Shown here in pieces: positions 183 to 45,451 of a stretch of DNA of 47,862 nt. The notes beneath the pieces were generated by a model. It had not been told where the DNA came from. It did no database searches and saw only the letters and a list, made by a program, of their open reading frames with translations. Location of the stretch: positions 1-47,862 of the IMG/VR virus record IMGVR_UViG_3300011445_000029; one strand, given 5' to 3'. The translations under genes and the position numbers were made by a program. Each line of letters starts with the position of its first letter. Within the stretch, counting starts at the first letter, position 1. The stretch comes from a virus.

Positions 183-576
183 AGGTAGCTTGTGAAACAG
201 AGTATCCACACATATTCGGTATAAAGACTACAGCCTGGATAACGAAGTCTACAGACACACCAGGAGGAAGCGTGTAAGTCTGTATCACTATTCCTGATGT
301 AGAAGGAAATGATCCTTCCCACAGAAGGAATACATTACCTGGATCTAACTCTGTGAAGAACTGGCATAGTTGAAGGGAAGGTAAGGGAGCCCCAAAGTTA
401 CCCCAAAGCTGAAATGAAGCTCCTACCCATATGGATAAAAGCTGAACACTCATACTCTGTGATATGGTAACGTCCCCATCACAATCCTGATCTATACACA
501 GGGTAATGTCAAAAGAGTTTTGCTGTTGACTTAGCAATGATCCACAGATGATTAGCAGACTTACTGTAGTTTTCAT
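169..576 (-). CDS. Putative secreted small protein with signal peptide
   Basis: 135 residues. The start at 576 is chosen because AGGAGG lies 6 bases upstream; an in-frame extension would run through the tRNA-Leu gene. The N-terminus MKTTVSLLIICGSLLS looks like a Sec signal peptide; a lipobox is not convincing. The mature part has few charges, pairs of cysteines and many aromatic and Pro residues (LPPGVSVDFVIQAVVFIP), suggesting a beta-rich exported protein. Function unknown; a cell-envelope or superinfection role would fit an early exported phage protein but is inference. Confidence 0.7.
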   Translation of the reverse strand: MKTTVSLLIICGSLLSQQQNSFDITLCIDQDCDGDVTISQSMSVQLLSIWVGASFQLWGNFGAPLPSLQLCQFFTELDPGNVFLLWEGSFPSTSGIVIQTYTLPPGVSVDFVIQAVVFIPNMCGYSVSQATYVHP

Positions 577-588
577 ATAACCTCCTAA

Positions 589-674
589 TGCTCCCGGTGG
601 GACTTGAACCCACACTCCCCTTACGGGGAAACAGATTTTAAGTCTGTTGCGGCTGCCAATTACGCCACGAGAGC
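589..674 (-). tRNA. tRNA-Leu (anticodon UAA)
   Basis: Read on the minus strand, the acceptor GCTCTCG pairs with CGGGAGC and the discriminator is A. The anticodon stem-loop is ACAGA-CTTAAAA-TCTGT, anticodon TAA. The long variable arm (TTCCCCGTAAGGGGAGT) forms a 4-bp CCCC/GGGG hairpin, as expected of a class II tRNA-Leu. T-arm loop is TTCAAGT. No CCA is encoded. It lies between two small genes in the early region. Confidence 0.93.
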
Positions 675-681
675 TGACCAC

Positions 682-1041
682 TTACTGTGGGATTGTAAGA
701 TCGTATTCAGACGCTAACACTGTTAAGTCAGCGTGTATCTTTGCATGGAAAAGAACACTGTCAGCGTAACGATCATGGGCACCTTGCAACTCGTTTGCAA
801 ACTCCTTGTCTAATCCTGCAAGAGAAGGACAAAGATCCATGACCTTATCCAGTATCATTGCTTCTGAGATACGGGAATCAAACCTTGGTTTGTAATCCGC
901 ATCATCCATTAAAACACCAATAGCACACTTCCTCCCTTCTGGTCCCCTATAAACACAATAGGCACCATGCATAGAAGGAGGAGCCTTGTTAGTAACAAAG
1001 TGTTCCCAAACCTTGTTAAATGCTGTTTGCCTTGTCCACAT
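682..1041 (-). CDS. Conserved phage protein with CxYRGPEGRKCAIGVLMDD motif
   Basis: 119 residues starting MWTRQTAFNKVWEHF. The core CVYRGPEGRKCAIGVLM followed by DDADYKP resembles a conserved uncharacterised phage family and also echoes the Cys-Gly 'KCAIG' centre of DUF6197-type proteins found several times in this genome. The C-terminal half is helical (ILDKVMDLCPSLAGL, ELQGAHDRYAD). It starts 3 bases after the stop of the upstream gene. No function assigned. Confidence 0.75.
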   Translation of the reverse strand: MWTRQTAFNKVWEHFVTNKAPPSMHGAYCVYRGPEGRKCAIGVLMDDADYKPRFDSRISEAMILDKVMDLCPSLAGLDKEFANELQGAHDRYADSVLFHAKIHADLTVLASEYDLTIPQ

Positions 1042-1043
1042 AT

Positions 1044-1580
1044 CTAATTATTACCTTTGACTGATAACCACACGATAGCCTGGAAGTCCCTTACAGACTC
1101 TCCCACGAACTCCGCAGCTTCTCTGTATGATCGCACCACTTCTTCACGAGTATCCTTAGGTAACTTCTTATCAGCATCCAACTGTACTGCACGTAAAGCC
1201 CACCTATCTAAGGTTACTTCCTCGTTATTACCACTCAAGTTCCTGTAGAAAGCAAGAGTTTTTGGAGCTGTGAGGATAAACTCAGGAGGTACCCCAAGTA
1301 AAATCCGAGTAGCGTTCCGCTTGTTAGCATTAAAACCAGCGTAATGTAGTTGTTGAGTAATCTTGAAATCACTGAGAGCTTTCTCTGTATTATTCCATTG
1401 ATAATCCCAACGAACAAAGGGAGATAGAGCAGCTACAGCGCCGATTACACTATTACTATCAAAAGCGAGACGCTGAGCAATATTATCAAAATGGCGATAC
1501 GCTCTATCGTACCAGCTCCTACCGTGTAGTTTGGTGGTGCCTGGGGTTTCATTGTATATCCTTACTAAGTCCTTATAAAT
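1044..1580 (-). CDS. Conserved phage protein lacking an ATG/GTG/TTG start; probable ATT start
   Basis: The frame is open from the TAG at 1584-1586 to the stop at 1044 and codes for about 178 residues. The sequence is clearly protein-like: YKDLVRIYNETP, GRSWYDRAY, then IGAVAALSPFVRWDYQWNN, then FNANKRNATRILLG, and LAFYRNLSGNNEEVTLDRWA. This order matches a conserved phage protein family (helical, 'AALSP..W..N' signature) of unknown function. There is no ATG, GTG or TTG in the first ~115 codons; the ATT at 1580, just downstream of the upstream gene's last codons, is the best-placed start. A +1 frameshift from the upstream gene at TTA-TAA is the alternative. Confidence 0.6.
   Translation of the reverse strand: MYKDLVRIYNETPGTTKLHGRSWYDRAYRHFDNIAQRLAFDSNSVIGAVAALSPFVRWDYQWNNTEKALSDFKITQQLHYAGFNANKRNATRILLGVPPEFILTAPKTLAFYRNLSGNNEEVTLDRWALRAVQLDADKKLPKDTREEVVRSYREAAEFVGESVRDFQAIVWLSVKGNN
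1445..1552 (-). CDS. Possible embedded 35-residue membrane peptide (overlapping frame)
   Basis: Inside the 1044-1580 gene, in another frame, ATG 1552 sits 6 bases after AAGGA and opens a 35-codon frame: MKPQAPPNYTVGAGTIER followed by an uninterrupted hydrophobic run IAILIILLSVSLLIVIV. A well-placed ribosome site plus a single transmembrane segment is how embedded lysis peptides look, but the outer frame is the conserved one, so this may be a by-product of its codons. Confidence 0.3.
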   Translation of the reverse strand: MKPQAPPNYTVGAGTIERIAILIILLSVSLLIVIV

Positions 1581-1875
1581 CGTCTATATCTCTCTTTCCA
1601 TGTATCTCACGATACTTGTAATCGGCTTCTACCATCTCTCTGTTAAGCCTACGCTCCTCTGCTGCTGAGTTTACTAATCGTATTTGCTCAGCGATCACAC
1701 GAGCATGGGGAGCTAAGATTGTAAGCACTAACTTAGCGATAGTAGAGGGCATTCCCTTGTTTAGGGAAACATTCTCTTCTGGTACCTGTTTGTAGAAAGC
1801 TTTTGTAGCTCTTGCTACGGTAGCGCGAATGAATTGCTTAGAAGCGCCAGATACACCAGCTATGCCTTGGGGCAT
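1573..1875 (-). CDS. Hypothetical helical protein
   Basis: 100 residues, MPQGIAGVSGASKQFIRATV. Largely amphipathic helix with many Ala, Arg and Glu (ARVIAEQIRLVN, AAEERRLNREMVEADYKY), basic overall. It ends next to, and may be translationally coupled or frameshift-linked to, the ATG-less gene downstream. No family recognised. Confidence 0.65.
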   Translation of the reverse strand: MPQGIAGVSGASKQFIRATVARATKAFYKQVPEENVSLNKGMPSTIAKLVLTILAPHARVIAEQIRLVNSAAEERRLNREMVEADYKYREIHGKRDIDDL

Positions 1876-1894
1876 TGTGAGTCTTTCTTCCAGG

Positions 1895-2191
1895 TTATTG
1901 TATCTGTTCTAATAAGGCTATCACTTCTTCTACGGTGCGCTCTGGTTTATCGTTCCATCCAGTCTCACAATGCTTATTGAATGGAGCGATAGGGAATACT
2001 GCGTTCTTCATGAAGTACTCACAAGCTACATCGTGTAGAGAACCTGGATTAGCTTCTCCGTAGATAGCTACGTGAATAGCTCCTATAAGACAAACAGGAC
2101 CACCGGGACCATCTTCTGATTGCCCCTTAGTCCATCCTCGCTCCTTGATAGTAGCAATAGCCTTCTGTGCAATCTCTTTGTTACTAAGCAT
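1895..2191 (-). CDS. DUF6197-like protein
   Basis: 98 residues from ATG 2191, which follows GGAAG by 4 bases; the stop codon of the HAD gene directly precedes it. The layout of the DUF6197 family is visible: N-terminal helix with 'ERGWTKGQ', a 'GPVCLIGAI' centre, and a C-terminal 'GWNDKPERTVEEVIALLEQ'. The biochemical role of the family is unknown. At least three other genes in this window share the pattern. Confidence 0.75.
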   Translation of the reverse strand: MLSNKEIAQKAIATIKERGWTKGQSEDGPGGPVCLIGAIHVAIYGEANPGSLHDVACEYFMKNAVFPIAPFNKHCETGWNDKPERTVEEVIALLEQIQ

Positions 2192-2192
2192 G

Positions 2193-2741
2193 TTACTTCC
2201 ACTTTCCTTCTTCAAACACTGGCTGAGTTAGCGATTGCTTGAGCTTACGGTTTAGGAGAAATGAATGGGAGGTATGAACAGGTAGCGTAAGTATTTGCAG
2301 AGCTTTCTTACAGTGTTCATCCGTTAATCCTGTTTGCATGGAGGTATGGACAAAGAACGGCATTTGCCACTTAAGCATATCCGCATCATCATCTATGATG
2401 ACGAAGGAATCCACTACTAAGAGATCCTTCTGTTCTAACCAGAGGGCTATCTCATCTCCCCTACACTTATTCTTATTCTCTGAATAAGGAATGTTAGGGG
2501 TAATGGACATAATAGGAAACAGTTTCTTCAGGCGCTGTATCGCAATGGAGTCATAACGCCAGCTACTGCTAAGTACGATCTCCGCACCACAAGCAGCTCG
2601 CAGATCATTAATCCTTTGTACATGCGCCGGATCAACAGGGTATCTACCATTAGGGTCATGTTCATCACCGTGGTAGGTAGAAAAAAAGGAATGGTGGTTT
2701 AGTACACCATCCACATCCAGGAAGATTAGCTTATGACCCAT
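2193..2741 (-). CDS. HAD-superfamily phosphatase (RNA-repair-type HAD domain)
   Basis: 182 residues. Motif I FLDVDGVLN holds the nucleophile Asp9 and acid/base Asp11; motif II is SSSWR near residue 60; motif IV is IDDDAD near residue 118. This arrangement is typical of the small HAD domains listed as 'Swiss army knife RNA repair' proteins, which remove phosphates from nucleic acid or nucleotide ends. The C-terminus (KKALQILTLPV...) is variable. Genes for an RNA ligase and several tRNAs in the same genome fit a tRNA-repair role, which is inference. Confidence 0.8.
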   Translation of the reverse strand: MGHKLIFLDVDGVLNHHSFFSTYHGDEHDPNGRYPVDPAHVQRINDLRAACGAEIVLSSSWRYDSIAIQRLKKLFPIMSITPNIPYSENKNKCRGDEIALWLEQKDLLVVDSFVIIDDDADMLKWQMPFFVHTSMQTGLTDEHCKKALQILTLPVHTSHSFLLNRKLKQSLTQPVFEEGKWK

Positions 2742-3060
2742 TTATTATCCCTGCTCTTTCTGGCTCAGGATAACGAGGGAATGTAGGGAACTTCTTAAAT
2801 ATCTTCTTCCTGTCCTTGAAGAAGATACAGCGTGGACATTTGTTAGAGTCCATTACTTCCATGTCACAATGAAGAAAATTGTTGTCAACATGCTCCACCC
2901 ACCACTTAATCCAATCCGTAGGAGCAGCTCGCCATATCTGCTGGATAGTTTTACCAGCTTCTATTTGATCCTTAGCCCAATTCTGTGCTTCGCTGCAAGC
3001 GCCGGCCAAGGATAACTCTTGTAGTAAGTCACGCTTCTTGTGGGATCTGGTAGCAGGCAT
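2731..3060 (-). CDS. Hypothetical protein with CSEAQxWA and CPRC motifs
   Basis: 109 residues, MPATRSHKKRDLLQEL. A helical N-terminal part contains ACSEAQNWAKDQI and TDWIKWWVEHV, a pattern seen in conserved phage proteins of unknown role; a Cys pair (CPRC) follows. Start and stop overlap both neighbours by a few bases. Confidence 0.7.
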   Translation of the reverse strand: MPATRSHKKRDLLQELSLAGACSEAQNWAKDQIEAGKTIQQIWRAAPTDWIKWWVEHVDNNFLHCDMEVMDSNKCPRCIFFKDRKKIFKKFPTFPRYPEPERAGIINGS

Positions 3061-3404
3061 TAGTTACCCCTCACAGGAAGGTAGGTTTCATTCTGATACT
3101 CTGCCTTAAGATCAAACTCGTTTACGAATAAACTCGGATGATCTTCGCGAGTGTATGGCTTATTCCCAAGTGCAATCTCTTCCCGACTACTTCTCCCATT
3201 AGGATACTTCCAACCGAATGCACCTACCCATACTCCACAAGCGTTACTGCAAGGACAAGACAAAGGATCACCGGGCTTACCTGCTGGTAATGTAGTGATA
3301 GCTGGCTTGCCTTGTTCCTTCAGCCGATTATTGCAAAAAAGAAGGCCCTCATCGTAGGCTTCTGCTGACATTACTACTTCATTTACTTTGTCTGTAACTG
3401 TCAT
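3060..3404 (-). CDS. Hypothetical protein with CPCSNACG motif
   Basis: 114 residues. A helical start (MTVTDKVNEVVMSAEAYDEG) precedes TTLPAGKPGDPLSCPCSNACG, a Cys-rich loop that could bind a metal, then a polar C-terminus. Stop TAA overlaps the ATG of the next gene by one base. Family not named with confidence. Confidence 0.7.
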   Translation of the reverse strand: MTVTDKVNEVVMSAEAYDEGLLFCNNRLKEQGKPAITTLPAGKPGDPLSCPCSNACGVWVGAFGWKYPNGRSSREEIALGNKPYTREDHPSLFVNEFDLKAEYQNETYLPVRGN

Positions 3405-3421
3405 GATTACCCTTAGGTTGA

Positions 3422-3628
3422 TTAGCCCATTGCCTTGCGCTTACGCTGGCGTTCATAGTGCATAAACGCCTCGTTCACATCCACAGACTCCACAGTTACC
3501 TTAATGTTCTTGGCTCCACTCTTAACCAGACTGTTTACACCCTGGATAAGATTGCTGTCAAGATCCATGAAGGTATCCCACAACTCATTCTTGCCCCGCC
3601 AGTTAGCGTAGACCTTGTATTGAATCAT
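3422..3628 (-). CDS. Small basic hypothetical protein
   Basis: 68 residues, MIQYKVYANWRGKNELWDTF, ending in a strongly basic tail YERQRKRKAMG. Preceded by GGAGG about 7 bases upstream. It is the first gene after the tRNA and the terminator-like stem at 3649-3720. Alternating strands with one helix suggest a small alpha/beta fold. Confidence 0.7.
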   Translation of the reverse strand: MIQYKVYANWRGKNELWDTFMDLDSNLIQGVNSLVKSGAKNIKVTVESVDVNEAFMHYERQRKRKAMG

Positions 3629-3640
3629 GTCCCCTCCAAG

Positions 3641-3720
3641 TAAAAAGACTCCCTACTACACTACGGGCTAAAGAGAGGGAAATCACAAAGAAACGAGAGA
3701 GAGTGTAATGTAGTAGGGAG
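3641..3720 (-). terminator. Long-range stem with T-tract, terminator or RNA processing site
   Basis: A perfect 12-bp inverted repeat, ctccctactaca (3649-3660) and its complement (3709-3720), encloses 48 bases. On the minus strand the stem is followed by GTCTTTTTAC. It lies between the tRNA-CAU gene and the next gene, so it could end or process the tRNA transcript. The loop is long for a classical rho-independent terminator. Confidence 0.5.
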
Positions 3721-3725
3721 ATTAG

Positions 3726-3799
3726 TGGGGCTTGTAGGACTCGAACCTACAACCAACGCATTATGAGTGCGTAGCTCTAACCACTTGAGCTAAAGCCCC
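3726..3799 (-). tRNA. tRNA with CAU anticodon (Ile2 or elongator Met)
   Basis: Acceptor GGGGCTT pairs with AAGCCCC; discriminator A. Anticodon stem-loop ACGCA-CTCATAA-TGCGT, anticodon CAT. T-arm GTAGG-TTCGAGT-CCTAC. The TTGGT that follows the anticodon stem resembles the variable region of bacterial tRNA-Ile2 (CAU, lysidine-modified), which reads AUA; an elongator Met identity cannot be excluded. A phage tRNA for AUA would suit this A+T-leaning coding sequence. Confidence 0.9.
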
Positions 3800-3807
3800 T
3801 GGCAACA

Positions 3808-4062
3808 TTACTTCTTGATCTGTTGCAGTTTGAGATACTGGAGTATTGCGATGTTTGTTCGCAATGTACCCCAATCTCTACTATTGGTATCACCAAGACG
3901 GCGATAGACAGTAGACAAACAAAGCCCAGTAGCTCTTGCTATCTCACTGGGCGTAACACCCAAGCCTTTCGCCTGGAGTGTTAGTAATCTACCAATGGGG
4001 CCTTTGATCTTGAAGATTACATTGGCAGAGGTATCCTTCCAGACTGTTACTTTGTTCTTCAT
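3808..4062 (-). CDS. Small HTH DNA-binding protein
   Basis: 84 residues. Residues 36-58 (VTPSEIARATGLCLSTVYRRLGD) form a clear helix-turn-helix of the Hin/resolvase or MarR-like recognition type, with TVYRRL as recognition helix. The preceding residues are hydrophobic beta or helix, and the tail is basic (YLKLQQIKK). Probably a phage regulator acting in the early region; targets unknown. Confidence 0.75.
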   Translation of the reverse strand: MKNKVTVWKDTSANVIFKIKGPIGRLLTLQAKGLGVTPSEIARATGLCLSTVYRRLGDTNSRDWGTLRTNIAILQYLKLQQIKK

Positions 4063-4086
4063 AGCTGGCTCTCTCTCGTTTCTTGC

Positions 4087-4314
4087 CTACTTAGTAGGCT
4101 TACCCGTCATGATGTTCACCTTGTTCCCTTGCATACGAGTAGCAAAGGTACACTTGGGATGATCCAATCTACGGATCATATGGGCATCACGCTGAGTAGC
4201 TGGCAAGCTAATGCTACCAGTTACTTCTTGCGTAATGAATCCTGCTTCTGTTAGATCACGCCACAACGGTCCCATGTAGGGAACCGTAATGTACTCGTAT
4301 CTCTTGGCTCCCAT
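4087..4314 (-). CDS. Hypothetical protein
   Basis: 75 residues, MGAKRYEYITVPYMGPLWRD. ATG 4314 shares one base with the stop of the previous gene and follows AGGAG by 6 bases. Basic C-terminus. No recognised domain. Confidence 0.7.
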   Translation of the reverse strand: MGAKRYEYITVPYMGPLWRDLTEAGFITQEVTGSISLPATQRDAHMIRRLDHPKCTFATRMQGNKVNIMTGKPTK

Positions 4315-4529
4315 TAGGGACTCCTGTTGTTCTTAGGAGAATCACTAATCTTTCCCACTTCCGCAGCACCAACAGCATTGTAGAAATGCTTAAGATCCAT
4401 ATGGATGTTGTGAGCAAGATCATTAATCAGCTCTTTAACATCCTCGGAATGGTTCAGAGACTCAGTTTGGAGAGCATCCACAAAGGAATGTAGTGCTTTC
4501 TCCAAGTGAGGAAACTTTTTGTTGGGCAT
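4314..4529 (-). CDS. Hypothetical helical protein
   Basis: 71 residues, MPNKKFPHLEKALHSFVDAL, nearly all helical with a polar Pro-Lys-Asn tail. First gene after the 574-base structured non-coding region. No family recognised. Confidence 0.65.
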   Translation of the reverse strand: MPNKKFPHLEKALHSFVDALQTESLNHSEDVKELINDLAHNIHMDLKHFYNAVGAAEVGKISDSPKNNRSP

Positions 4530-4592
4530 GTTCTATTCCCTATTGTTTAAATCTCCTGTACCAAGGCGTAACCATTACTCCCCTGTACCAAA

Positions 4593-4715
4593 GCTTTTAT
4601 TCCCTACTGTTACCCGTCATGCTTAGTGTACCGTTCAGTCGGTCACATCATAACGTTCAGGTAACCGTAGCTGAACCTACGGTGCATTACCTGGATAACA
4701 GTAGAGAATAAAAGC
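4593..4715 (-). ncRNA. Structured RNA: 23-bp closing stem, two hairpins with complementary loops
   Basis: Arms 4593-4615 and 4693-4715 pair over 23 positions; the only two non-Watson-Crick positions are G-U wobbles when read on the minus (transcribed) strand. Inside, CAGGTAA/TTACCTG (7 bp) and CCGTAG/CTACGG (6 bp) form one arm with loop GTTCAG; a second small hairpin ACCG/CGGT has loop ACTGAA. GTTCAG is complementary to CTGAAC, which spans that second loop and its closing base, so a kissing-loop or pseudoknot is possible. Seen in sequence; function unknown. Confidence 0.6.
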
Positions 4716-4990
4716 CCGGTTTATTTTGTATCTGCGACCGGAAACGCAGAGCATTAGTTTATCTGCTTCTTTTATGGGTGCTAATGTCCACCATTATCTT
4801 TGCATTAGAAGCAAGATCCTACATATTTTTACAAGTGATAAGTATAACTACCGCTCACTCAAGGAAATGTAGGAAACCCTATCCCATAATACTTAGTGAC
4901 ACCAGGGATTTCAATGGAATCGACTAAGTACCCCCACTAATACTGAACACTACCACAGGAGTGTAGTAATGTACCGCCCTACCTAACGTA

Positions 4991-5100
4991 GGGTATTAGA
5001 CTCTTAATCTCCCGTTTTCCCCTTAGCTCAACAAGAGCTATAGTATTCAACGAGACAAAGAACCAACCCTGATTAACAGAGATTAAGAGTTTAATAACCC
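4991..5100 (-). repeat. Long inverted repeat just downstream of the 73-residue gene
   Basis: Arms 4991-5011 and 5079-5100 share a perfect 12-bp core (ACTCTTAATCTC / GAGATTAAGAGT) extended to about 21 bp with one mismatch and one bulge. The spacer is 67 bases. Arm and spacer sizes resemble those at 4593-4715 and 5850-5974. Possible RNase III site or transcript-stabilising stem. Confidence 0.6.
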
Positions 5101-5103
5101 ACG

Positions 5104-5325
5104 TTAACGGTTAGTGCGGATATCCTGCTGCCGCTTAAGCGATTGCATACAGATATCAGCGGTGTAGTCGAAAGCCTTTTCCGCTTTCTTCCTGTGTAAC
5201 CTCACAACGCTATATCCCAGGGAAGTGTAGTGTTCTTCCCAATATGCGGGAGGTGAATCGTAGAACTTAGCCTCACGATTACCAAGGCTATCGGTAATGA
5301 TGAGACAGTAGCGACCCTTTTTCAT
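5104..5325 (-). CDS. Hypothetical protein
   Basis: 73 residues, MKKGRYCLIITDSLGNREAK. An N-terminal strand pair is followed by SPPAYWEEHYTSLGYSVVRLHRK and a helical basic tail. ATG overlaps the TGA of the preceding 52-residue gene (ATGA). No family recognised. Confidence 0.7.
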   Translation of the reverse strand: MKKGRYCLIITDSLGNREAKFYDSPPAYWEEHYTSLGYSVVRLHRKKAEKAFDYTADICMQSLKRQQDIRTNR

Positions 5326-5480
5326 TTACCCTTCTCCACAGTGTAGGGCTTTTGCATATGCCCTAAGTTATAGCAGAATGCACAGATCCTAAAAATCCCA
5401 TAATCAGTATTAAGCTTGATTACGGGAGGATTAGTGCATTGTTCTTCATGAGCCTTATGCTCACACTCGCATAGGGACAT
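5322..5480 (-). CDS. Cys-rich microprotein (putative zinc finger)
   Basis: 52 residues, MSLCECEHKAHEEQCTNPPV. Cysteines in the order CEC...C near the N-terminus and CAFC later (RICAFCYNLGH) look like a small zinc-binding fold. The stop overlaps the start of the next gene by four bases. Function unknown. Confidence 0.65.
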   Translation of the reverse strand: MSLCECEHKAHEEQCTNPPVIKLNTDYGIFRICAFCYNLGHMQKPYTVEKGK

Positions 5481-5485
5481 TGTTA

Positions 5486-5728
5486 CTACTCCAGGTTAGG
5501 ATCGTAAACAACATCCGGCGCATCATCCGCTACTGTACGGTAAAGCTTGTTAATGGGAAGCTTAGCCGACATATCAGTAGGCAGACTACCAAGAATGATA
5601 TGCGGTTTACCAGGGATTGTATTCATCCCAAAGGTAATCCAAGCATATCCATTAGGCTGAGTCTTGAATACGCAACCATCGCGCATTTCAGTAACAACCC
5701 ATAACGAGCGTACCGATTGATTCTTCAT
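5486..5728 (-). CDS. Hypothetical protein
   Basis: 80 residues, MKNQSVRSLWVVTEMRDGCV, mostly beta-strand with Gly/Pro turns, acidic C-terminus DDAPDVVYDPNLE. GAGGG lies upstream of the ATG. No family recognised. Confidence 0.65.
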   Translation of the reverse strand: MKNQSVRSLWVVTEMRDGCVFKTQPNGYAWITFGMNTIPGKPHIILGSLPTDMSAKLPINKLYRTVADDAPDVVYDPNLE

Positions 5729-6045
5729 TATTGCATACCCTCATGGATAATGCAACCAATGGTAACCATTGAAAGAATGTAGAACACTACCAAGATAAGC
5801 ATTTTGTAATGTACCTTGTAATGCACCGTAGAATGTACCACCACACAGTGTAGGGTATCCTATTCCTTCCTGTAATGTACTACACCGCAAGCCTACTGCG
5901 CTTTGTCCCACGCTAAGTAATAGGTCATGCAATGTATTACTGTACTGAATACAGGAAGGAATAGGATACCCTACTAATCCCCTACAGTATGCGCCGCTAT
6001 CGGCGTCTCTACCGTAGACGAATAGTAGGGTATTCCAGGGTTTAG
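5729..6045 (-). other. Gene-free interval carrying a long perfect stem
   Basis: Contains the 25-bp inverted repeat at 5850-5974 and three copies of GTAGGGTAT (two direct, 5850 and 6025; one inverted, 5966-5974). Short frames here run through the repeat and have no ribosome site, so I do not call a gene. Confidence 0.6.
5850..5974 (-). repeat. Perfect 25-bp inverted repeat, 75-base spacer
   Basis: Arms 5850-5874 and 5950-5974 are exact reverse complements (GTAGGGTATCCTATTCCTTC and five more bases). The spacer includes further small pairings (GCG/CGC, CCTA/TAGG). A stem this long would be a substrate for RNase III in the transcript between the 92-residue and 80-residue genes. Confidence 0.75.
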
Positions 6046-6324
6046 TTACCCGTTGTTCGCCCCCTGGAGCGCGTCGGCCTGTGCTTGCAGGCTGTTGACG
6101 AACGCCTGAAGGTTTCCGGCCTTGGCAAGATTCATGAGGAATGACACAGTCGTGTTTGTCGTGCCGATGCTGCTGAGGGTCTTGATACCCTCAGTAAACA
6201 TCTTGCGATGCTTGGCCGGAATGTCGTCCACCGGGATGCTGGCGAACGACGTATAGGCCGTTGCCGCGATTCCCTGGTAGTAACGAGCGGACTTCCGCTT
6301 GGGCGTGGTGTTGGTGTCGGCCAT
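6046..6324 (-). CDS. Small Ala/Thr-rich protein with GC-rich codons
   Basis: 92 residues from ATG 6324 (MADTNTTPKRKSARYYQGIA), chosen because AAGGG lies 7 bases upstream; an in-frame longer version lacks a site. Helical, ending LQAFVNSLQAQADALQGANNG. Third codon positions are strongly G/C (GCC GAC ACC AAC ACC), unlike the neighbouring genes, which suggests a different origin or selection for high expression. Function unknown. Confidence 0.7.
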   Translation of the reverse strand: MADTNTTPKRKSARYYQGIAATAYTSFASIPVDDIPAKHRKMFTEGIKTLSSIGTTNTTVSFLMNLAKAGNLQAFVNSLQAQADALQGANNG

Positions 6325-6360
6325 TGTGATACCCTTTACAGTATGGACTATGTATAGACT

Positions 6361-6376
6361 GTCACGATATTGTGAC
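6361..6376. promoter_or_regulatory. Short dyad GTCAC-N6-GTGAC, possible operator
   Basis: A 5-bp inverted repeat with 6-base spacer, gtcacgatattgtgac, about 40 bases upstream of the 92-residue gene. The form suits a dimeric regulator such as a small HTH protein; no binding is demonstrated. Confidence 0.3.
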
Positions 6377-6392
6377 GTTATCAGTACATAGT

Positions 6393-6484
6393 GCCTATTC
6401 ACCTATTACCGTCGAATACTGATTACTGGGATATCCTGTACGCTATGCGTCTAATCAGCGTATCAAGGTAATAGGTGAATAGGC
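6393..6484 (-). repeat. Perfect 18-bp inverted repeat enclosing a second stem
   Basis: Arms 6393-6410 and 6467-6484 (GCCTATTCACCTATTACC) are perfect complements. The 56-base interior contains CTGATTA/TAATCAG and ACGC-ATA-GCGT, so the whole element folds as a long multi-stem RNA in the leader of the 6046-6324 gene. Confidence 0.7.
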
Positions 6485-6533
6485 TTACCCCGCACGTACC
6501 TATTGGATTAGTGCTGAGGTAACCTAAGGGTAT

Positions 6534-6692
6534 TTACCGCTGGATTGTTGCCGCTTCAGTCTGTGCGATATGCGCCTGTATTTCCTTCAGCACCGCCAGT
6601 GCGGTAGCTGGATCATTCCAGTCTGAAGGATTACCGATCGACATACATGCCAGTCTAAGGCCGTGCAACATGCCAGCAACGTAGCTATCCAT
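6534..6692 (-). CDS. Hypothetical small protein, start uncertain
   Basis: From ATG 6692, 52 residues (MDSYVAGMLHGLRLACMSIG ...). The frame is open further up to a TTG at 6800, which would give 88 residues with more cysteines (HECGVF, GSCCAIA) but has no clear ribosome site and overlaps a palindrome. GGAG precedes ATG 6692 by 10 bases. If the sigma-54-like promoters upstream are real, this is the first gene they serve. Confidence 0.5.
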   Translation of the reverse strand: MDSYVAGMLHGLRLACMSIGNPSDWNDPATALAVLKEIQAHIAQTEAATIQR

Positions 6693-6795
6693 AGGCTTAA
6701 CACTCCGAGCTATGGCACAGCATGAGCCTACACTCAGCTGCACTTGCTCTATCTGGTTGTGAAAGACTCCGCATTCGTGTGCATTGTGAGTGTTC

Positions 6796-6811
6796 GGCAA
6801 GCTACTTGCCG
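6796..6811 (-). promoter_or_regulatory. Palindrome with GG-N10-GC spacing
   Basis: CGGCAAG-TAG-CTTGCCG is a 7-bp hairpin in RNA; it also has the GG-N10-GC spacing of a -24/-12 element, but the palindrome alone explains that. Listed as a fourth, weak, promoter candidate or a transcript hairpin. Confidence 0.25.
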
Positions 6812-6851
6812 CGCACCCCGCACACAGGACGCATTGCGCCCCACAGTGTAT

Positions 6852-6867
6852 AGCAAGACGCGTGCCG
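6852..6867 (-). promoter_or_regulatory. Sigma-54-like promoter P3
   Basis: On the minus strand: CGGCACG-CGTC-TTGCT. The consensus is TGGCACG-N4-TTGCA/T; only the first T differs, and GG and GC are 10 bases apart as required. Predicted start near 6840. Confidence 0.5.
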
Positions 6868-6946
6868 CACCCCTGAATCTATCCCTTGTGGTATTCGTCG
6901 GGTGACATACAAGGGATTGTAGGGTATGTTAGGTATTTGAGGTTTA

Positions 6947-6984
6947 GGGCGTCACCGTTTGGTGCTGGGCGTTACCGTTTGGTG
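6947..6984. repeat. Tandem 18-bp repeats between promoters P2 and P3
   Basis: gggcgtcaccgtttggtg (6947-6964) and gggcgttaccgtttggtg (6967-6984): one difference, period 20 bases. Two turns of helix per repeat suggests a protein-binding pair on one DNA face. Confidence 0.6.
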
Positions 6985-7017
6985 GTAACAGCGTGTTTCC
7001 AGCATGAAACAAGCATA

Positions 7018-7034
7018 GGCAAATGCCATGCCAG
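7018..7034 (-). promoter_or_regulatory. Sigma-54-like promoter P2
   Basis: On the minus strand: CTGGCATG-GCAT-TTGCC. Matches YTGGCACG-N4-TTGCW at all but two positions, with GG-N10-GC spacing. Lies 60 bases after P1. Predicted start near 7006. Confidence 0.5.
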
Positions 7035-7077
7035 CAACACAGCCTTAACACAATCTTAACATACCCTTCATAATCCC

Positions 7078-7094
7078 TGCAAGTCCCATGCCAA
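7078..7094 (-). promoter_or_regulatory. Sigma-54-like promoter P1
   Basis: On the minus strand: TTGGCATG-GGAC-TTGCA, one difference from YTGGCACG-N4-TTGCW and correct GG-N10-GC spacing. Sigma-54 promoters need an upstream activator; the dyad at 7237-7272 lies 150-190 bases upstream, a usual distance. A sigma-70 reading (TTGCAG, 18 bases, TAAGAT) of the same stretch is weaker. Confidence 0.5.
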
Positions 7095-7236
7095 ACGTGG
7101 CAGGGTCGCTAAAAAGGCTGCGCGCCCCATGACACACAGCCTACCAATACCCTCAGCACGCCCCATAAGCCTCTATAAACGCATTACAGGGGTCGCCAGC
7201 ACGCACCCACCAAAATCCTAACCCGAATATCCTGCA

Positions 7237-7272
7237 ATACCCTCAGGTACTTGTGGTACCACCGCAGGGTAT
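7237..7272. promoter_or_regulatory. Dyad with central palindrome, possible activator site
   Basis: ATACCCT (7237-7243) is complementary to AGGGTAT (7266-7272), and the perfect palindrome GTGGTACCAC (7253-7262) sits between them. Position relative to P1 is compatible with an enhancer; alternatively a DNA-packaging or terminus element. Confidence 0.35.
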
Positions 7273-7414
7273 CCCCTACTTATTGTGGGGGTATGGGGGG
7301 GATTGTAGAGTTTTTTCGGTTTTGTTACCTGCACTAAAATTCTAAGAACTTTTAATCCCCTCCACCAAATATTAACCACCCTACAATTAACCCACAGATA
7401 AACCCGAACATACC

Positions 7415-9058
7415 CTAAGCGTTTGCTGCAAAGGGTATGATACCACGTATCTTCTCCCACCCTGGACCCTCGGCAGAGTAACAGGCATCTACCTGTGGGA
7501 TGTTCTGATAGATCGTCATGCAGAAGTCCTCAATCTTATCTAACTTATCCTGATAGATTTGAGGGAGATCCCAAGCAACAGCATACTTCTTGAGGGGGAT
7601 CATCCAGATACCCTGGAACTTCCCTGAGTATACGCATTCATGACTCGCCAATGGCCTTAGGTAAATCTCAGAAGCAGCGGTACCAGGGTTACCCGTTGGG
7701 TTCCACTTGTATCCGAATTGACCTGAAGAGTGAACGCAATAGTCCAGAACGTGCTTTAAAATATTCTGAACTCTACCTAAATGCTGTAGGCAGATACCCT
7801 CATCGTGCATCCACTTGGCTAACCAATACAGCAAGCCTTCCTCATGACACATTTCATTAGTACTTCCCGAGGTCACGTTGGGGAACCAAGGGTTATCCTT
7901 TATGAAGTTGGTAAAAGCAAAGTTAATTTCGTTCTCTGCACGGACCTTGAAGTTATTGTTACCAGTTGCCTTGTAGTAGTACCAAAGGTTCTCTAAGTAG
8001 TGCGATAAATTACGAGCGCCACCCCCACCATTCCATGCCCTCTGTGGTCTTAGGAGGTACTCTGAGGTAACTTGAAAGCCTCTGCTGATAAGCTGATCCT
8101 GTGGGAAGAGGTAATAGGCAATAGCGAGGTCTTTGAAGTGAGACTTAGCAGGACTTGGAGCCATTCCTGAACAGCCACGAAGCTCTGTACTCTTCTCATT
8201 ACGAGCCATACCACGCATCCAGAGGTTCTGGTCGCAGTCTATGATACCATAAGCGATCTTCCACCTGACAAGCCATATGCCCATTAGAGCAGAGCCTACA
8301 TCACCTGTGGTGACAGCATTCAAGAAGGCATTAGCCGCATGGTAATACCTCTCATTACTCAGGGACTCGGCTCCAGCAGCCCTGGTACCAAATCCATATA
8401 TATTCCTAATTCCTTCTAAAGGTGTAGGATTAAACGGATACTTCGCTATGAAGTTCTCAGGGACAAGAAGCCAACCAGCATTTCGCTGACCAGCAATAGC
8501 CGAGGGACCGTAGGGACTGAGGCTATTCCAACCTATTACTTTCTTAAGGAAAGGTCTGTTGTTGATGAGAGTAGGATCGAAGTTTAGGATCATCCCAATC
8601 GGGTTCATATCCCTACCTTCAATACTTTCCTCCAAATACTCTAACTCTTCAGGATCATCCTCAGGTACCCAGCGGACATACAGGGTCGCTCCACCGTCTA
8701 TGGTGAGTCCCTGTGTACAATGCTCGTAGCCTGGGATGGTAACTGAATTCCTCTGAGCCTTGTGCTTGTAGCTCTCGGGTGTCAGGATATCCCATTCTCT
8801 CTCACCCTCATTGTTGAGTCCATTATCCTGACAACCGAAGGTTGGAGGGATAATAAAATTTCCGGGTGCCTTAGCGGATAGAGCAGAAACAAACTTGGGC
8901 TCAGGTTGCCAAGGCTGACCCCAATTGTCGGGTCTACCTGGATTACGGTCTATAAGCTCTACGGTGAGGATCTTAGTAGGATCATGTTTGCTGTACCCTA
9001 TCACCAGCGGGATGGTCTTAACCACCCCATTCGTGTAGGTAATTGTAGCACTATACAT
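7415..9058 (-). CDS. Tail fibre/spike protein, possible glycan-active receptor-binding protein
   Basis: 547 residues from ATG 9058, which overlaps the stop of the preceding gene. The first ~110 residues look beta-rich (SATITYTNGVVKTIPLVIGY); the rest is helical with repeated aromatic patterns such as YYHAANAFLNAV, LENLWYYYKATG and LLYWLAKWMHDEG, reminiscent of alpha/alpha-toroid (six-hairpin) carbohydrate-active folds. Last gene of the late block, after two other tail genes, so a host-recognition or capsule-degrading role is likely. No catalytic residue can be assigned. Confidence 0.6.
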   Translation of the reverse strand: MYSATITYTNGVVKTIPLVIGYSKHDPTKILTVELIDRNPGRPDNWGQPWQPEPKFVSALSAKAPGNFIIPPTFGCQDNGLNNEGEREWDILTPESYKHKAQRNSVTIPGYEHCTQGLTIDGGATLYVRWVPEDDPEELEYLEESIEGRDMNPIGMILNFDPTLINNRPFLKKVIGWNSLSPYGPSAIAGQRNAGWLLVPENFIAKYPFNPTPLEGIRNIYGFGTRAAGAESLSNERYYHAANAFLNAVTTGDVGSALMGIWLVRWKIAYGIIDCDQNLWMRGMARNEKSTELRGCSGMAPSPAKSHFKDLAIAYYLFPQDQLISRGFQVTSEYLLRPQRAWNGGGGARNLSHYLENLWYYYKATGNNNFKVRAENEINFAFTNFIKDNPWFPNVTSGSTNEMCHEEGLLYWLAKWMHDEGICLQHLGRVQNILKHVLDYCVHSSGQFGYKWNPTGNPGTAASEIYLRPLASHECVYSGKFQGIWMIPLKKYAVAWDLPQIYQDKLDKIEDFCMTIYQNIPQVDACYSAEGPGWEKIRGIIPFAANA

Positions 9059-9416
9059 CAGCACTCGATTCAGTCTTAGGAATAAGAGTAAATGGCTTGC
9101 GAACACCTGGAGGTAAGAGTAACTTCTTCTGGTTATTAGTACCCTTCTCCATAACCTTCTTCATCATCAGCTCTAACACTTGAATACGAGTGCCAAGAGC
9201 ATTGAAAGCTTGTGGGATAGTCATTACGAGAGTGTTTAAGTTCTCGGCAAGGCGTTCAACCTTCTCTTTATCACCTAACTCTTCCCACCCTATAGTTGCT
9301 TCTTCAGGTTCAGGCTCAGGGTTGGGTGATTGCTCTGGAAGTACAGGCGGATCACCTGGAACGTCTACACCTGGGATAGCCTCAGGCATCTCTTCGTCTG
9401 GATCATCGGGATTCAT
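9051..9416 (-). CDS. Acidic Pro-rich coiled-coil tail-associated protein
   Basis: 121 residues. The first 45 are Asp/Glu/Pro-rich (NPDDPDEEMPEAIPGVDVPG), then a helical segment LVMTIPQAFNALGTRIQVLE with coiled-coil character, then a basic tail. It overlaps the spike gene by 8 bases and follows the fibre gene by 15. Likely an adaptor or chaperone of tail assembly; this is inferred from position. Confidence 0.55.
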   Translation of the reverse strand: MNPDDPDEEMPEAIPGVDVPGDPPVLPEQSPNPEPEPEEATIGWEELGDKEKVERLAENLNTLVMTIPQAFNALGTRIQVLELMMKKVMEKGTNNQKKLLLPPGVRKPFTLIPKTESSADV

Positions 9417-10854: not shown

Positions 10855-10899
10855 TGGCGGCGCTAATGGGAATTGCACCCATGACCTTTGGCTAAAGTC
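10855..10899 (-). pseudogene. tRNA 3'-half remnant
   Basis: GACTT-TAGCCAA-AGGTC anticodon-like arm, ATGGG-TGCAATT-CCCAT T-arm-like stem, then TAGCGCC-GCCA resembling an acceptor end with encoded CCA. It abuts the 3' end of tRNA-Pro and has no 5' half. Confidence 0.35.
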
Positions 10900-10975
10900 A
10901 ACCATCTTGGATTTGAACCAAGGACATTTCCTGCTTCCAAAGCAGGCGCAATAAACCAGCCTATGCGAATGGTTG
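10898..10975 (-). tRNA. tRNA-Pro (anticodon UGG)
   Basis: Acceptor CAACCAT pairs with ATGGTTG, with C1-G72 and discriminator A73 typical of bacterial tRNA-Pro. Anticodon arm CCTGC-TTTGGAA-GCAGG, anticodon TGG. T-arm CTTGG-TTCAAAT-CCAAG. The D stem is weak (GCA/TGC) and the variable loop is 7 bases, slightly long. Confidence 0.85.
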
Positions 10976-13261: not shown

Positions 13262-15100
13262 CTATTTCTTGCCAAAACTGATCCAACTTAGTTGGGTATT
13301 CTTGTCAGGATTACGCTGGCGTATCCCTGTCCAAGAGCAATCTTCTACCATCTTCTTCATGTACTCCGCACGCCTATCTAATTTAGCACGCGCTTGATCC
13401 ATACCCAGGTTTTGCATGAAGTAGTTTACTAATCCAGCTAAAGCATCCACTCTGTCATCCTTAGCTAAGCATCCCTTTTCTTGGGTAATGTGACTAAGTT
13501 GGTACATAAGGGAACGCTGCTGGGATAACACTTCGCTATCCTCAGGGTGGGCTAAGATATCTTGTTCTATTACACGGGGATCTATTACAATCAGATGCTG
13601 ATTAAGGACAGGCTCAAGGGTATCTATGATACGCTTTTCCTTCTGGCCCTTAGTCCACTCTGAGGGAGTTACCGTACATGGGTAAATCTTCGCTAAGATA
13701 GGAGATAAGAGTTGATCGAACATACCTGCACCAAAGTTAGGTTCAGTTATGATCTCCTTAACCTGATACTTCTTAGCTAACTCCGCTATCTGGATAAGAT
13801 TCTTTTCCTCGTATCCATCTCTGAATCCTCTACAGGCGACTATCCAGATTAATCCGTTACAAAATTTACCAATAGCGTAGGCTAACTCGTCACCACCCTT
13901 ACCAGCAGGATCTATATACATCGCTGTCTGAGTAGGGGATAACCACTCCATCTTAGCGTCTTTAAGATTGATAGGTGCGTAGAAACGATCACCCATGAAG
14001 CCCATACAGGGCAGATCCTTCAAGCAGAAGTCATCTATAGTAGTCCACTGAGGAGTGGCAGGGATCTTATCCCCAATACTCATAACGATGAAGTCTCTAA
14101 GCTTGAGTGGGAACCTTTCGGCATCCTCTAAAGACGTATCCAACATGAACTGTCGGACGAAGCCAGAGTGTGCAAACTCCTTCTCACTATCACATAGGAT
14201 AGCCTCGTTGAATCGGGTATCAGTAGGCCAACCTAAGTTACCCCTTAGACCTCTTCCTGTTTGCTTCTCAGGAGTGAGATCAGCATGTATAGTAGGCTCA
14301 AGCTGGTCACCATAACGAGATAACCATTTGTCGGATGGGTAACGAGCAGGAATAATAATACGCTTGTAGCCACGCTCATTTACTAACCTCTCATAGATAC
14401 TATCCTCGCACTGAGGAGTACCCAGGTAGATAACCAATCCAGACTCAGGCTTACCGATAGCTCCACCTATCTCAGAGATATAGTGTGCTAACTTCTCCCG
14501 TAATAGCTGTGTTTCAGAAGTCTTTGGAGTCTCTACGTCATCGCAGAACGTAATGTCTGAGCGAGAACCAGTCATTTGCCCAAAGATACCTCTGGAGAAT
14601 ATGCTGGGCTCCTGTGCAGGGTTACATCCACGTATGTCGAAGCCTGTTTGCGCTATACGGTCCCCAAGAGCCTTCTGAGGCTCCAGGTGCTGTAGCTCAG
14701 GGATTTGCCTGATAAGCTTCAAGCAGAACGTGGTGAACGCTACAGCCTTTGTAGAGGCCGCAGAGACGGTCATTATGTTGATGTTGGGGTTCCAATAGGC
14801 AACCCATACGGCTATCGTTGCACAGATCCAGGACTTACCGATTCCTCGGAAAGCTTCCAGAACCATTCTCTTAGTGCAATCCCCATTAGCCTTCTTGAGC
14901 ATGGGGTACTCTTCCAAGAACGCTGCATCAGGCTCTAAGTTAACCAGTGATGAATGCTTGATAACATTCTGGAGAACATTAGCCATCCTATACTGTTTAG
15001 GTGTAGGATCAGGTAAACCTAACTCATGCCAAATGTGGAAGAGGAAGTTGCGAAAGTCTGCAAACTGTGGGAGTTGATACTTATTAGTTGGTATAACCAT
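13262..15100 (-). CDS. Terminase large subunit (gp19-like)
   Basis: 612 residues, close to T7 gp19 (586). Walker A-type loop FRGIGKSW at about residues 84-91, Walker B-like ITFCDDVETP, and nuclease motif YIDPAGKGGDELAYA followed by IITEPNFGAGMFDQLL. It packages DNA into the procapsid with the small subunit encoded immediately upstream; start and stop abut at 15100. Confidence 0.95.
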   Translation of the reverse strand: MVIPTNKYQLPQFADFRNFLFHIWHELGLPDPTPKQYRMANVLQNVIKHSSLVNLEPDAAFLEEYPMLKKANGDCTKRMVLEAFRGIGKSWICATIAVWVAYWNPNINIMTVSAASTKAVAFTTFCLKLIRQIPELQHLEPQKALGDRIAQTGFDIRGCNPAQEPSIFSRGIFGQMTGSRSDITFCDDVETPKTSETQLLREKLAHYISEIGGAIGKPESGLVIYLGTPQCEDSIYERLVNERGYKRIIIPARYPSDKWLSRYGDQLEPTIHADLTPEKQTGRGLRGNLGWPTDTRFNEAILCDSEKEFAHSGFVRQFMLDTSLEDAERFPLKLRDFIVMSIGDKIPATPQWTTIDDFCLKDLPCMGFMGDRFYAPINLKDAKMEWLSPTQTAMYIDPAGKGGDELAYAIGKFCNGLIWIVACRGFRDGYEEKNLIQIAELAKKYQVKEIITEPNFGAGMFDQLLSPILAKIYPCTVTPSEWTKGQKEKRIIDTLEPVLNQHLIVIDPRVIEQDILAHPEDSEVLSQQRSLMYQLSHITQEKGCLAKDDRVDALAGLVNYFMQNLGMDQARAKLDRRAEYMKKMVEDCSWTGIRQRNPDKNTQLSWISFGKK

Positions 15101-28613: not shown

Positions 28614-28763
28614 GTCTTAAATCCTTTCGGAAATAGAAATAATAAATACCTAACATACTGCTTGAGTGGCAGCACACTAAGTTACTACTGTCTATAACCT
28701 AACAGATTTAAGTTGTCCTCTCGTAAGAGGGCTTACCACGATTGGCAAGACTTCGTAACTAAA
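28614..28763 (-). other. 150-base leader of the capsid gene
   Basis: No gene. Contains CCTCT-TACG-AGAGG hairpin near 28716-28729 and an A+T-rich stretch. The region directly before gene 10 carries a strong phage promoter in T7; I cannot define the promoter consensus of this polymerase, so none is called. Confidence 0.4.
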
Positions 28764-28838: not shown

Positions 28839-28842
28839 AAAT

Positions 28843-41914: not shown

Positions 41915-41917
41915 AGG

Positions 41918-44368
41918 TTACCCAAAGAAATACGGACTCTTCATTACACAAGCTGGATTTAACTCTCCAAGCTTAGGCGGATCAGGCAGCACGACACTCG
42001 GCGGAAGCTGTAGCTGGATCTCATCTCGGAAACGTTCTAATAGATTCATGTTGCAGAATATATCAGCCACTTCCTTTCGCAGAGTATTCGCAAGCGTATG
42101 GGCATCATCCGCATGACTCGCATACTTATCATGCACCATCACCAGATCACAGTTATCCGGCATTGCTACCGTAGTGAGCATCATAATGGCTGCATCTATC
42201 GTATGAATAAAGTTGGGTGAAATCCCATTAGCTTGCTTCTTCTTACTCAGGTGAGTAAGGGGTATTAAGATGGAGCGTTTCCTATGTATATCACCTAAGC
42301 ATGTATAGATTGTAGCTCGGCGGTGATTAACATTCGCTTGGAATATCTGGAAGCCTGTTTTAGGAGCCGTCCAGATCATCGGTATCTTATGCTCTACGCA
42401 AATCTTACTAACTTCGCGTAGCCACGACATTGCCTCTACAGCACCCTTAACGATATCCTTAATAGCTTCAAGGATCTTCTCAGTCAGATAGCGAGTATGT
42501 GTCCAAGTCGCTCCGAACGGCCTGTTCATTTCCAGATTACGCTTGTATATCTCGTCCTCGTACCACTCCTGAACATACTCTCTAATACTAAACTTAGTAC
42601 CAGAGTAAGGCAGAACCATTACAGGACGCTTAGTACAAGCCCTTGGTAACTTACTATCTGTAAACTTCAGCCATGCTTCAGCACGCTCAGGGTGTTCTAT
42701 ATCTTCCTTCAGAAGTGCTGTAGTCTTATCCGCTACTTCCTGGTAGATATCCCTGGGGCGATCAGAAGGGGAAACGTTAGTAGCAGCAGCCCCAACAGGA
42801 TCGCGTAGTAACAGTGAATATATCTGAAGGCCATTATTAGTCCCGTCCATGCCAACAGGTATATGACTAATAAAGTTGGGATCTTCGTTAAACTTGCCAT
42901 ACTCCTCACACCATGCTAAGAACTCCCAGGGACTATCTGCGGTTTCCCACTGTCTATTACTAATAGGATCTTCATATATCTTTAAGATCCAACTCTTGTT
43001 ATCTTCAACCCAATTTATACGTTCTGTAAAGGTTTGCTTGTTCAATCCCCAACAGTTAGCTCCATGAACGTAAAACCATCCTCGTCCTTCATCTGTCTTA
43101 ATTGGCTTCCCACTGGCAAACGTAAGTAAACCTTTTGCAAGGCTGCATCCCTGGGGATTAAGAAAACTCGGGATCGGGTACGCACGCCCCCTGAAGTCCA
43201 GCTTGTAAGGGAACCAAAAGGGTTGATACTGATAGTTAGATGCGATGAAGTGGATTTTTCCATACAGGAGCTTCTTACTACCTATTCGGCGGTTATACTC
43301 ATGGATAGCATGAGCTTGCTTCATCCACATCCGCTTAGATTCTTCGTTGATATCTATATCAGGTGGTGTAGGAGGAACCTTACGGAAGTTGTGTTCCGGT
43401 AGGTCAGTAACCCCTAAGCCATTCTTCCAGAAGTAATCAAACGTTGCGAATACAAACTCATTCACCTTCCAAGGAACATTCTGTAACCTATTGACAGCCT
43501 TATATACAATAGGCATTTCCTTAGGTCCAAGCTTGGGAGCCTTACGGTGGTGCCTATGTACGAGAGGCCAGCGCATAAATACGTTCTTAGGGTAACCACC
43601 ATCGTTAGAATCAGTCCACGGAACAGGTGGTTCTACAGTAGGCAGATAGAATGGATACTTGGTTTGGTACTCTTGTTGAGACTGAGCCAACCACTCCATC
43701 AGTTCTTGTGTAGGCTTAACTACGGATCTTCGCCAGGGTTTGTTGGGATTGTGTCCCTGGATACTCTCAAGAGTTATGAATCCAGTAACCGCAGCGAATA
43801 GCTCTAAGCAAACGAAGCCTAACCCGTAACGATCCTTCAGCGCCCAATTACTCCAATTAGTATCTATCTTCCTTACAGCGTCCTTTATGATTCTCCTGCG
43901 AACGCTTTTAGATTTAGTCTTAGTGTGTCTATTAAACTCATTCCACTTTAAACTTAGATGACGCTTGAAGCCCTTGTAGCGGACTTCCTCTTCCAATGCA
44001 TTAGCTATAGCAAGCCCGACAGTCTGCACACTATCAGTTATCGTTATGTTGTCGATGATAACTTGGCTGATAATGAGAGCTGCGGTATCAGGCTTCAGTT
44101 GCTTTAAGAAGTACACAGAAGAATGTCGAGGTCCAACTCTGTGTTTGGCTTGCTTAACCCAATCATCCAAGCATTTAGAAAAGACTTCTATAGCCTTATC
44201 TAAGAGGATTTGTCCGGGTTTAGTAAGAGTGAGCGCACCACGCTCGACATTCTTCCGGTTATTGTTTATGGATCTCTCTATACCAAGATCCACCATCCAC
44301 TTAAGAACTTCTGCTTCTGTTAGTTTCTTCTTATTCAGCTTATGAATTCCCTCACTTGTCAAAAACAC
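41918..44368 (-). CDS. T7-type single-subunit RNA polymerase (gp1-like)
   Basis: 816 residues from GTG 44368; a TTG at 44362 better spaced from AGGGAG is possible. Motif A PVGMDGTNNGLQIYS (Asp508), motif B TKRPVMVLPYSGTKF (Lys580, Tyr588), motif C VHDKYASHADDA (Asp747), and DFRGRAYPIPSFLNPQGCSL correspond to T7 Asp537, Lys631, Tyr639, Asp812 and the DWRGRVY region. It transcribes the replication and structural genes from phage promoters, which I could not identify here. Confidence 0.95.
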   Translation of the reverse strand: MFLTSEGIHKLNKKKLTEAEVLKWMVDLGIERSINNNRKNVERGALTLTKPGQILLDKAIEVFSKCLDDWVKQAKHRVGPRHSSVYFLKQLKPDTAALIISQVIIDNITITDSVQTVGLAIANALEEEVRYKGFKRHLSLKWNEFNRHTKTKSKSVRRRIIKDAVRKIDTNWSNWALKDRYGLGFVCLELFAAVTGFITLESIQGHNPNKPWRRSVVKPTQELMEWLAQSQQEYQTKYPFYLPTVEPPVPWTDSNDGGYPKNVFMRWPLVHRHHRKAPKLGPKEMPIVYKAVNRLQNVPWKVNEFVFATFDYFWKNGLGVTDLPEHNFRKVPPTPPDIDINEESKRMWMKQAHAIHEYNRRIGSKKLLYGKIHFIASNYQYQPFWFPYKLDFRGRAYPIPSFLNPQGCSLAKGLLTFASGKPIKTDEGRGWFYVHGANCWGLNKQTFTERINWVEDNKSWILKIYEDPISNRQWETADSPWEFLAWCEEYGKFNEDPNFISHIPVGMDGTNNGLQIYSLLLRDPVGAAATNVSPSDRPRDIYQEVADKTTALLKEDIEHPERAEAWLKFTDSKLPRACTKRPVMVLPYSGTKFSIREYVQEWYEDEIYKRNLEMNRPFGATWTHTRYLTEKILEAIKDIVKGAVEAMSWLREVSKICVEHKIPMIWTAPKTGFQIFQANVNHRRATIYTCLGDIHRKRSILIPLTHLSKKKQANGISPNFIHTIDAAIMMLTTVAMPDNCDLVMVHDKYASHADDAHTLANTLRKEVADIFCNMNLLERFRDEIQLQLPPSVVLPDPPKLGELNPACVMKSPYFFG

Positions 44369-44807: not shown

Positions 44808-44809
44808 AA

Positions 44810-45208: not shown

Positions 45209-45221
45209 TTACTTATCCTTT

Positions 45222-45415: not shown

Positions 45416-45451
45416 TTTACAGGGGGCTCCAGGATGCGCTACAAAGCCTCT

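Follow-up and report, generated by a model that had tools for sequence, protein, structure and literature searches.

Sigma-54-type promoter sites clustered in the leader ahead of the early genes of a T7-like phage

The DNA considered in this report, referred to here as the window, is the entire virus record IMGVR_UViG_3300011445_000029 of 47,862 bases. Because an 80-aa ORF reads across its two ends, the assembly may be circularised or permuted. Nearly all of its genes lie on the minus strand. From a gene-free leader, the small early genes run from ~6689 down to position 1 and onward from 47862 to a gene for a phage RNA polymerase, beyond which follow, in order, genes for a primase/helicase, a DNA polymerase, the portal, the capsid, the nozzle, the internal virion proteins and the large terminase subunit (TerL). 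Tail genes and genes of unknown assignment come after TerL, the terminal one being an ORF at 7415-9106 that brings the map back to the leader. The genes that bound the regions of interest are as follows.

41918..44368, minus strand: single-subunit phage RNA polymerase, closing the early region (phrog_414, E 5e-214)
13262..15100, minus strand: large terminase of the T7 type (PF22530, phrog_38)
6690..7414, minus strand: leader of 725 bases, from the last late ORF (ends 7415) to the first likely early ORF (~6689), devoid of a strong coding-strand sigma-70 match
6534..6689, minus strand: first likely early gene, ~51 aa, of no known family, with GGAG upstream of its ATG
6046..6321, minus strand: second likely early gene, 91 aa, of no known family (ORF list and Pfam search)

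Searches of Pfam and PHROG with the longer frame of the first early gene also gave no match. The single-subunit RNA polymerase and a set of T7-type genes for replication, the head and packaging, arranged in the T7 order and including the T7-type primase, TerL, the nozzle and the internal virion proteins, place the phage with the autographiviruses, as a reading made earlier from the sequence alone (the sequence-only reading) had supposed. It is a new autographivirus: a search with half of the window found no DNA-level match among phage records, and the RNA polymerases of the nearest named phages share no more than ~34% identity with its own. Single-protein searches with the RNA polymerase, the last late protein and one early protein returned no relatives. 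The window also carries four predicted tRNA genes (Leu-taa at 589-674, Met-cat at 3725-3799, Pro-tgg at 10897-10975 and Leu-tag at 28763-28839), which is above the usual number for a T7-like phage.

The leader contains three sites of the -24/-12 (sigma-54) type, all on the minus strand, which is here the coding strand, and all with the exact GG-N10-GC arrangement that the sequence-only reading had described.

7078..7094, minus strand: site 1, TTGGCATGGGACTTGCA, that is TTGGCATG-GGAC-TTGCA, the top sigma-54 score of the record with both matrices
7018..7034, minus strand: site 2, CTGGCATGGCATTTGCC, that is CTGGCATG-GCAT-TTGCC, the second-highest score of the record with both matrices
about 6852..6868, minus strand: site 3, GCGGCACGCGTCTTGCT, that is CGGCACG-CGTC-TTGCT, the third-highest score with both matrices

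Sites 1 and 2 have both half-sites (TGGCAYG and TTGC) in full, and site 3 has CGG for TGG. The starts predicted from them, at ~7067 (an A), ~7007 and ~6841 (a G), precede the first likely early ATG (~6689) by 378, 318 and 152 bases, so that all three sites are co-oriented with the early genes and upstream of them, and their claimed position in a leader before those genes is borne out. The GG-N10-GC spacing by itself is uninformative, with 278 occurrences in the window against 280 expected, and the weight of the evidence comes from scores over the whole motif. With an approximate sigma-54 consensus matrix, these sites score 18.7, 17.8 and 14.8, the three highest values of the record on both strands. 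With a second matrix, derived from the 135 E. coli ChIP-seq sites that PMC4591121 lists, they score 18.1, 17.2 and 14.7 and rank first, second and third of the whole record, the intergenic sites of E. coli having a median of 14.9 and a maximum of 20.1. With either matrix the strong matches are restricted to the leader, and none is found before middle or late genes.

Simulated sequences were used to judge how often such scores might arise. In 100 genomes simulated at order 3, the maximum score with the ChIP matrix had a mean of 13.9 and stayed at or below 16.8 throughout; among 100 simulated at order 1, a score of 18.1 was reached in two. None of these 200 genomes contained a comparable triple within 300 bp, and with the approximate matrix none of 2000 simulations of the leader composition produced three sites scoring at least 14. 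The comparison with randomised sequence that the sequence-only reading had put forward as a check came out in its favour. Site 3 taken alone is not significant genome-wide, since a site in coding sequence scores 14.3, and the cluster is accordingly one of two strong sites and one moderate site, the last deriving its weight from lying in the leader and on the correct strand. The three sites are likely to be of a kind recognised by sigma-54, and the motif makes their binding by an RNA polymerase holoenzyme carrying RpoN a strong inference.

The leader is a GC-richer stretch and has several other elements, which are listed here together with one candidate from deeper in the early region.

6796..6812, minus strand: weak fourth GG-N10-GC match, inside the 17-bp palindrome CGGCAAGTAGCTTGCCG (6795-6811) with 7-bp perfect arms
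6947..6984: two 18-nt direct repeats with a 20-bp period, 94% identical, between sites 2 and 3
7239..7270: imperfect dyad with 10-bp arms and 2 mismatches, indistinguishable from background
4886..4914, minus strand: sigma-70-like candidate TTGAAA-N17-TATTAT, within the intergenic gap 4530-5103 and scoring at the mean maximum of shuffled genomes

The weak fourth match scores 10.2 on the minus strand and 11.8 on the plus strand with the approximate matrix, and the palindrome around it is a possible regulator site or hairpin. The dyad had been read as a potential enhancer 150-190 bases upstream of the promoters; it is present at 7239-7270, but several other dyads in the leader are equally good and it holds no NtrC or NifA consensus, so that the proposed enhancer role is not supported. 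More generally, patterns for NtrC, NifA, LuxO-like regulators and IHF have no match in the leader. The sole unusual element from this survey is the pair of direct repeats (minus-strand sequence CACCAAACGGTRACGCCC), ~106-143 bp upstream of the start predicted for site 3. They are a candidate regulator-binding element, which could seat an activator for that site.

A competing set of sigma-70 promoters was sought in the same region. No promoter-like site of the TTGACA-N17-TATAAT type was found by pattern on the coding strand of the leader, and the best sigma-70 matrix score there, 8.9, is at background (shuffled mean maximum, 8.5). There is no cluster of early sigma-70 promoters of the T7 kind in the leader, which has a z score of -0.2 for sigma-70 vs 3.8 for sigma-54. 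The 35 gaps downstream of related TerL genes that served as controls have a median sigma-54 z of -0.2, with three of them at 2 or above. Across the early region (window 1-8000 and 41500-47862), sigma-70-like patterns occur at about half of their shuffled frequency (6 vs 14.7 expected, and 5 vs 11.3). The candidate at 4914-4886 is a possible second early promoter, and because it sits deeper in the early region, sigma-54 need not be the sole class of early promoter in this phage.

Similar sites are found in the leaders of some relatives. Of the viral contigs found, L131 is the closest, with an RNA polymerase 50% identical to that of the window and synteny over most of the genome at 27-59% identity; a further scan with the RNA polymerase for nearer relatives returned it alone. 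Its matching leader (2020-2205) has a row of four TTGGCACG- / TTGGCACGG-type sites at 2020, 2054, 2123 and 2189. The site at 2123 alone keeps GC at -12, and the other three, which have GA, may be decaying or weaker sigma-54 sites. In L133, with an RNA polymerase 36% identical, strict sites stand on the coding strand at 2804 and 2937 and one more on the opposite strand, directly before the first early gene and ~5.5 kb past TerL, the same as in the window. L063 has TerL, then a strict tandem pair, then the RNA polymerase, and L033 has TerL followed by a strict tandem pair in a stretch that ends before any RNA polymerase. The leaders of the window and these relatives otherwise show no significant alignment, and several weak BLAST matches between them coincide with the sites. 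For the conservation in related phages that the earlier reading proposed to look for, the picture is mixed. Sites stand in the matching place in L133, L063, L033 and, in degenerate form, L131. In a sample picked by TerL alone, a tandem pair was present in one of 44 informative loci and missing from the other 43, and the examined stretches of Roseobacter phage CRP-171, Rhizobium phage Pasto, Mesorhizobium phage Lo5R7ANS, Desulfovibrio phage ProddE and Pelagibacter phage HTVC115P lacked tandem sites. Because just one of the TerL loci has the tandem sites, we make no claim for the family at large; the feature is patchy, and we infer that such patchiness fits a feature that follows the host.

A wider search found tandem pairs of sigma-54 sites 35-65 bases apart in at least 120 viral contigs, a figure that near-identical contigs may inflate, vs one contig for the reversed pattern of identical composition. 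Among the matches listed, the arrays have 2-8 sites each, with spacings that peak at ~27 and ~47 bases, and in their 470 sites the columns left free by the search also follow the consensus, with A or T after TTGC in 91% and T or C before TGGCA in 88%. A T7-like primase is encoded in 17 of 20 array loci with recognisable genes, mostly ~50% identical to the primase of Pelagibacter phage HTVC115P, and the array-locus stretches with such a primase had no detected RNA polymerase gene. In L024, a bidirectional array (8251-8447) stands between genes for primase, polymerase and thymidylate synthase on one strand and genes for endolysin, terminase and portal on the other, an arrangement shared wholly or partly by ~10 further contigs. 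Bidirectional arrays with a ~47-bp unit holding a forward and a reverse site were noted between early and late modules in L024, L027, L032, L042, L050, L085, L108, L111, L116 and L125, all from uncultured HTVC115P-like phages with no phage RNA polymerase detected. The matches to named Vibrio phages were rejected as arrays, the three records examined having single or degenerate sites; the T5-like Vibrio phage Thalassa (L128:2503-2519) bears one TTGGCATGGTTATTGCTA site, ~380 bp ahead of the A2 gene.

These findings can be brought together in a scheme for the window phage. The early promoters A1, A2 and A3 of T7 are tandem sigma-70 promoters, independent of activators and read by the host RNA polymerase. 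The cluster of sigma-54 sites would occupy their place in the leader. On entry of the phage DNA, the RpoN-containing holoenzyme of the host RNA polymerase would form closed complexes at the sites; an AAA+ enhancer-binding protein of the host, itself active in certain host conditions, would then open these complexes, and transcription would proceed through the early genes up to the gene for the phage's own RNA polymerase. We regard it as probable, at a lower level of assurance than sigma-54 recognition itself, that the cluster drives early transcription through the host RpoN holoenzyme and an activator. The activator would have to come from the host, because no phage-encoded sigma-54 activator was found by tblastn with an approximate NtrC AAA+ domain as query or by Pfam searches of 50 proteins of the window.

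Some further observations touch on bacterial genomes and the host. Tandem sites were found in 58 bacterial genome stretches, and there were no phage-protein matches at the tandem-site loci of those stretches; whole-genome matches to the phage primase were weak (20-31% identity). One Chitinophagales MAG (contigs L234, L236 and L256) has many strong sigma-54 sites, some of them tandem, within a few kilobases. A 10-kb contig in an Oceanicoccus MAG, L230, has six phage-style TTGGCATG sites at 395-787 and may be both a phage contig and a clue to a host. The window also encodes an RNA ligase (36333-37238; phrog_548, PF09414) and, elsewhere, a single protein in which an RNA-repair HAD domain (PF18143) was matched. 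RtcR, the regulator of the host RNA-repair operon, is itself a sigma-54 activator (PMC9879122), and a link of the phage RNA-repair genes to sigma-54 by way of RtcR is conceivable.

Other explanations for the sites can be considered. The cluster might be a decoy or silent landing pad, in which closed sigma-54 complexes sequester or park the host polymerase and productive early transcription starts at deeper sigma-70 promoters such as the candidate at 4914. Closed complexes of sigma-54 are silent unless an activator opens them. E. coli sigma-54 binds many sites that are not known as promoters (PMC4591121), no enhancer was found in the leader, and arrays of up to eight sites in other phages might also suit such a role. 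A mere landing pad would nevertheless leave the first early genes without a promoter of their own, the candidate at 4914 is no better than chance, and the sites are co-oriented with the downstream genes and stand just ahead of the first one in unrelated phages, and on balance we consider this explanation unlikely. To an equal degree we doubt that the sites belong to a phage-encoded DNA-binding protein for replication, packaging or repression and merely resemble the -24/-12 element. The regular 27- and 47-bp spacing of the arrays in other phages does look iteron-like, and one protein of the window has a helix-turn-helix match, but two half-sites with an unconserved 4-bp middle, a fixed 10-bp spacing and A or T after TTGC form the signature of sigma-54, and the same motif recurs across phages that differ in gene content.

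It is very unlikely that the sites are promoters for the phage's own single-subunit RNA polymerase: such an enzyme is encoded, and its promoters typically form repeated motifs on one strand, but the strong motif is confined to the leader and does not precede middle or late genes, and it also occurs in phage regions without a detectable RNA polymerase gene. Motif discovery for promoters of that enzyme gave nothing convincing. A chance cluster in the GC-richer leader is disfavoured to the same extent, for although isolated matches as strong as site 1 arise occasionally in order-1 shuffles, no simulation reproduced the triple, and such sites recur in the leaders of L131, L133, L063 and L033.

The reading of the cluster as RpoN-dependent early promoters can be compared with known systems. 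The leader resembles that of T7 in having three tandem promoters at the early end of a T7-like genome, to be read, as proposed here, by the host polymerase, and differs in that all three are sigma-54-type sites and no good sigma-70 match accompanies them. The sites resemble bacterial sigma-54 promoters such as those of E. coli glnA, pspA and glnK (PMC4591121) in half-sites, GG-N10-GC spacing and range of matrix scores, and are unlike them in being tandem, on a T7-like genome and without a recognisable enhancer. With the arrays of uncultured HTVC115P-like phages (L024, L028, L032, L067 and others) they share tandem TTGGCAYG-N4-TTGCW sites before early replication genes; those arrays are richer in copies, more tightly spaced (27- or 47-bp period) and often bidirectional between early and late modules, and, unlike the window, the stretches of these phages that were examined had no detectable phage RNA polymerase gene. 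Ties between phages and the sigma-54 system have been described in the form of a putative RpoN-like protein of Pectobacterium phage Q19 (PMC7693777) and a sigma-54-type regulator encoded by phage phi1422 (PMC3391216); these are genes rather than promoters, and none such was found in the window. A full-text search of largely open-access papers found no report of sigma-54 promoters serving as early promoters of a phage.

Tandem sigma-54 promoters might represent a distinct transcription strategy that podovirus-like phages have acquired repeatedly, replacing the sigma-70 early promoters in autographiviruses and, as bidirectional arrays, driving both early and late genes where an RNA polymerase of the phage's own seems absent, with infection gated in either situation by an active host enhancer-binding protein. 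We put this forward tentatively, as a generalisation that stands a little on the doubtful side.

The usual view of phage early promoters is that they are strong sigma-70 promoters in no need of an activator, which lets an infection start in any cell. If the proposal for the window is true, this phage would stay silent until its host signals nitrogen limitation, membrane stress, motility or another state under the control of RpoN. Such a dependence would explain some infections that vary with host physiology, and it predicts that mutants in rpoN or in the activator would be resistant without loss of a receptor. Tandem TTGGCAYG-N4-TTGCW sites would then provide a sequence tag by which phages of this kind might be spotted in metagenomes, and a recurrent sigma-54-based strategy of phage transcription would, if true, be of high interest.
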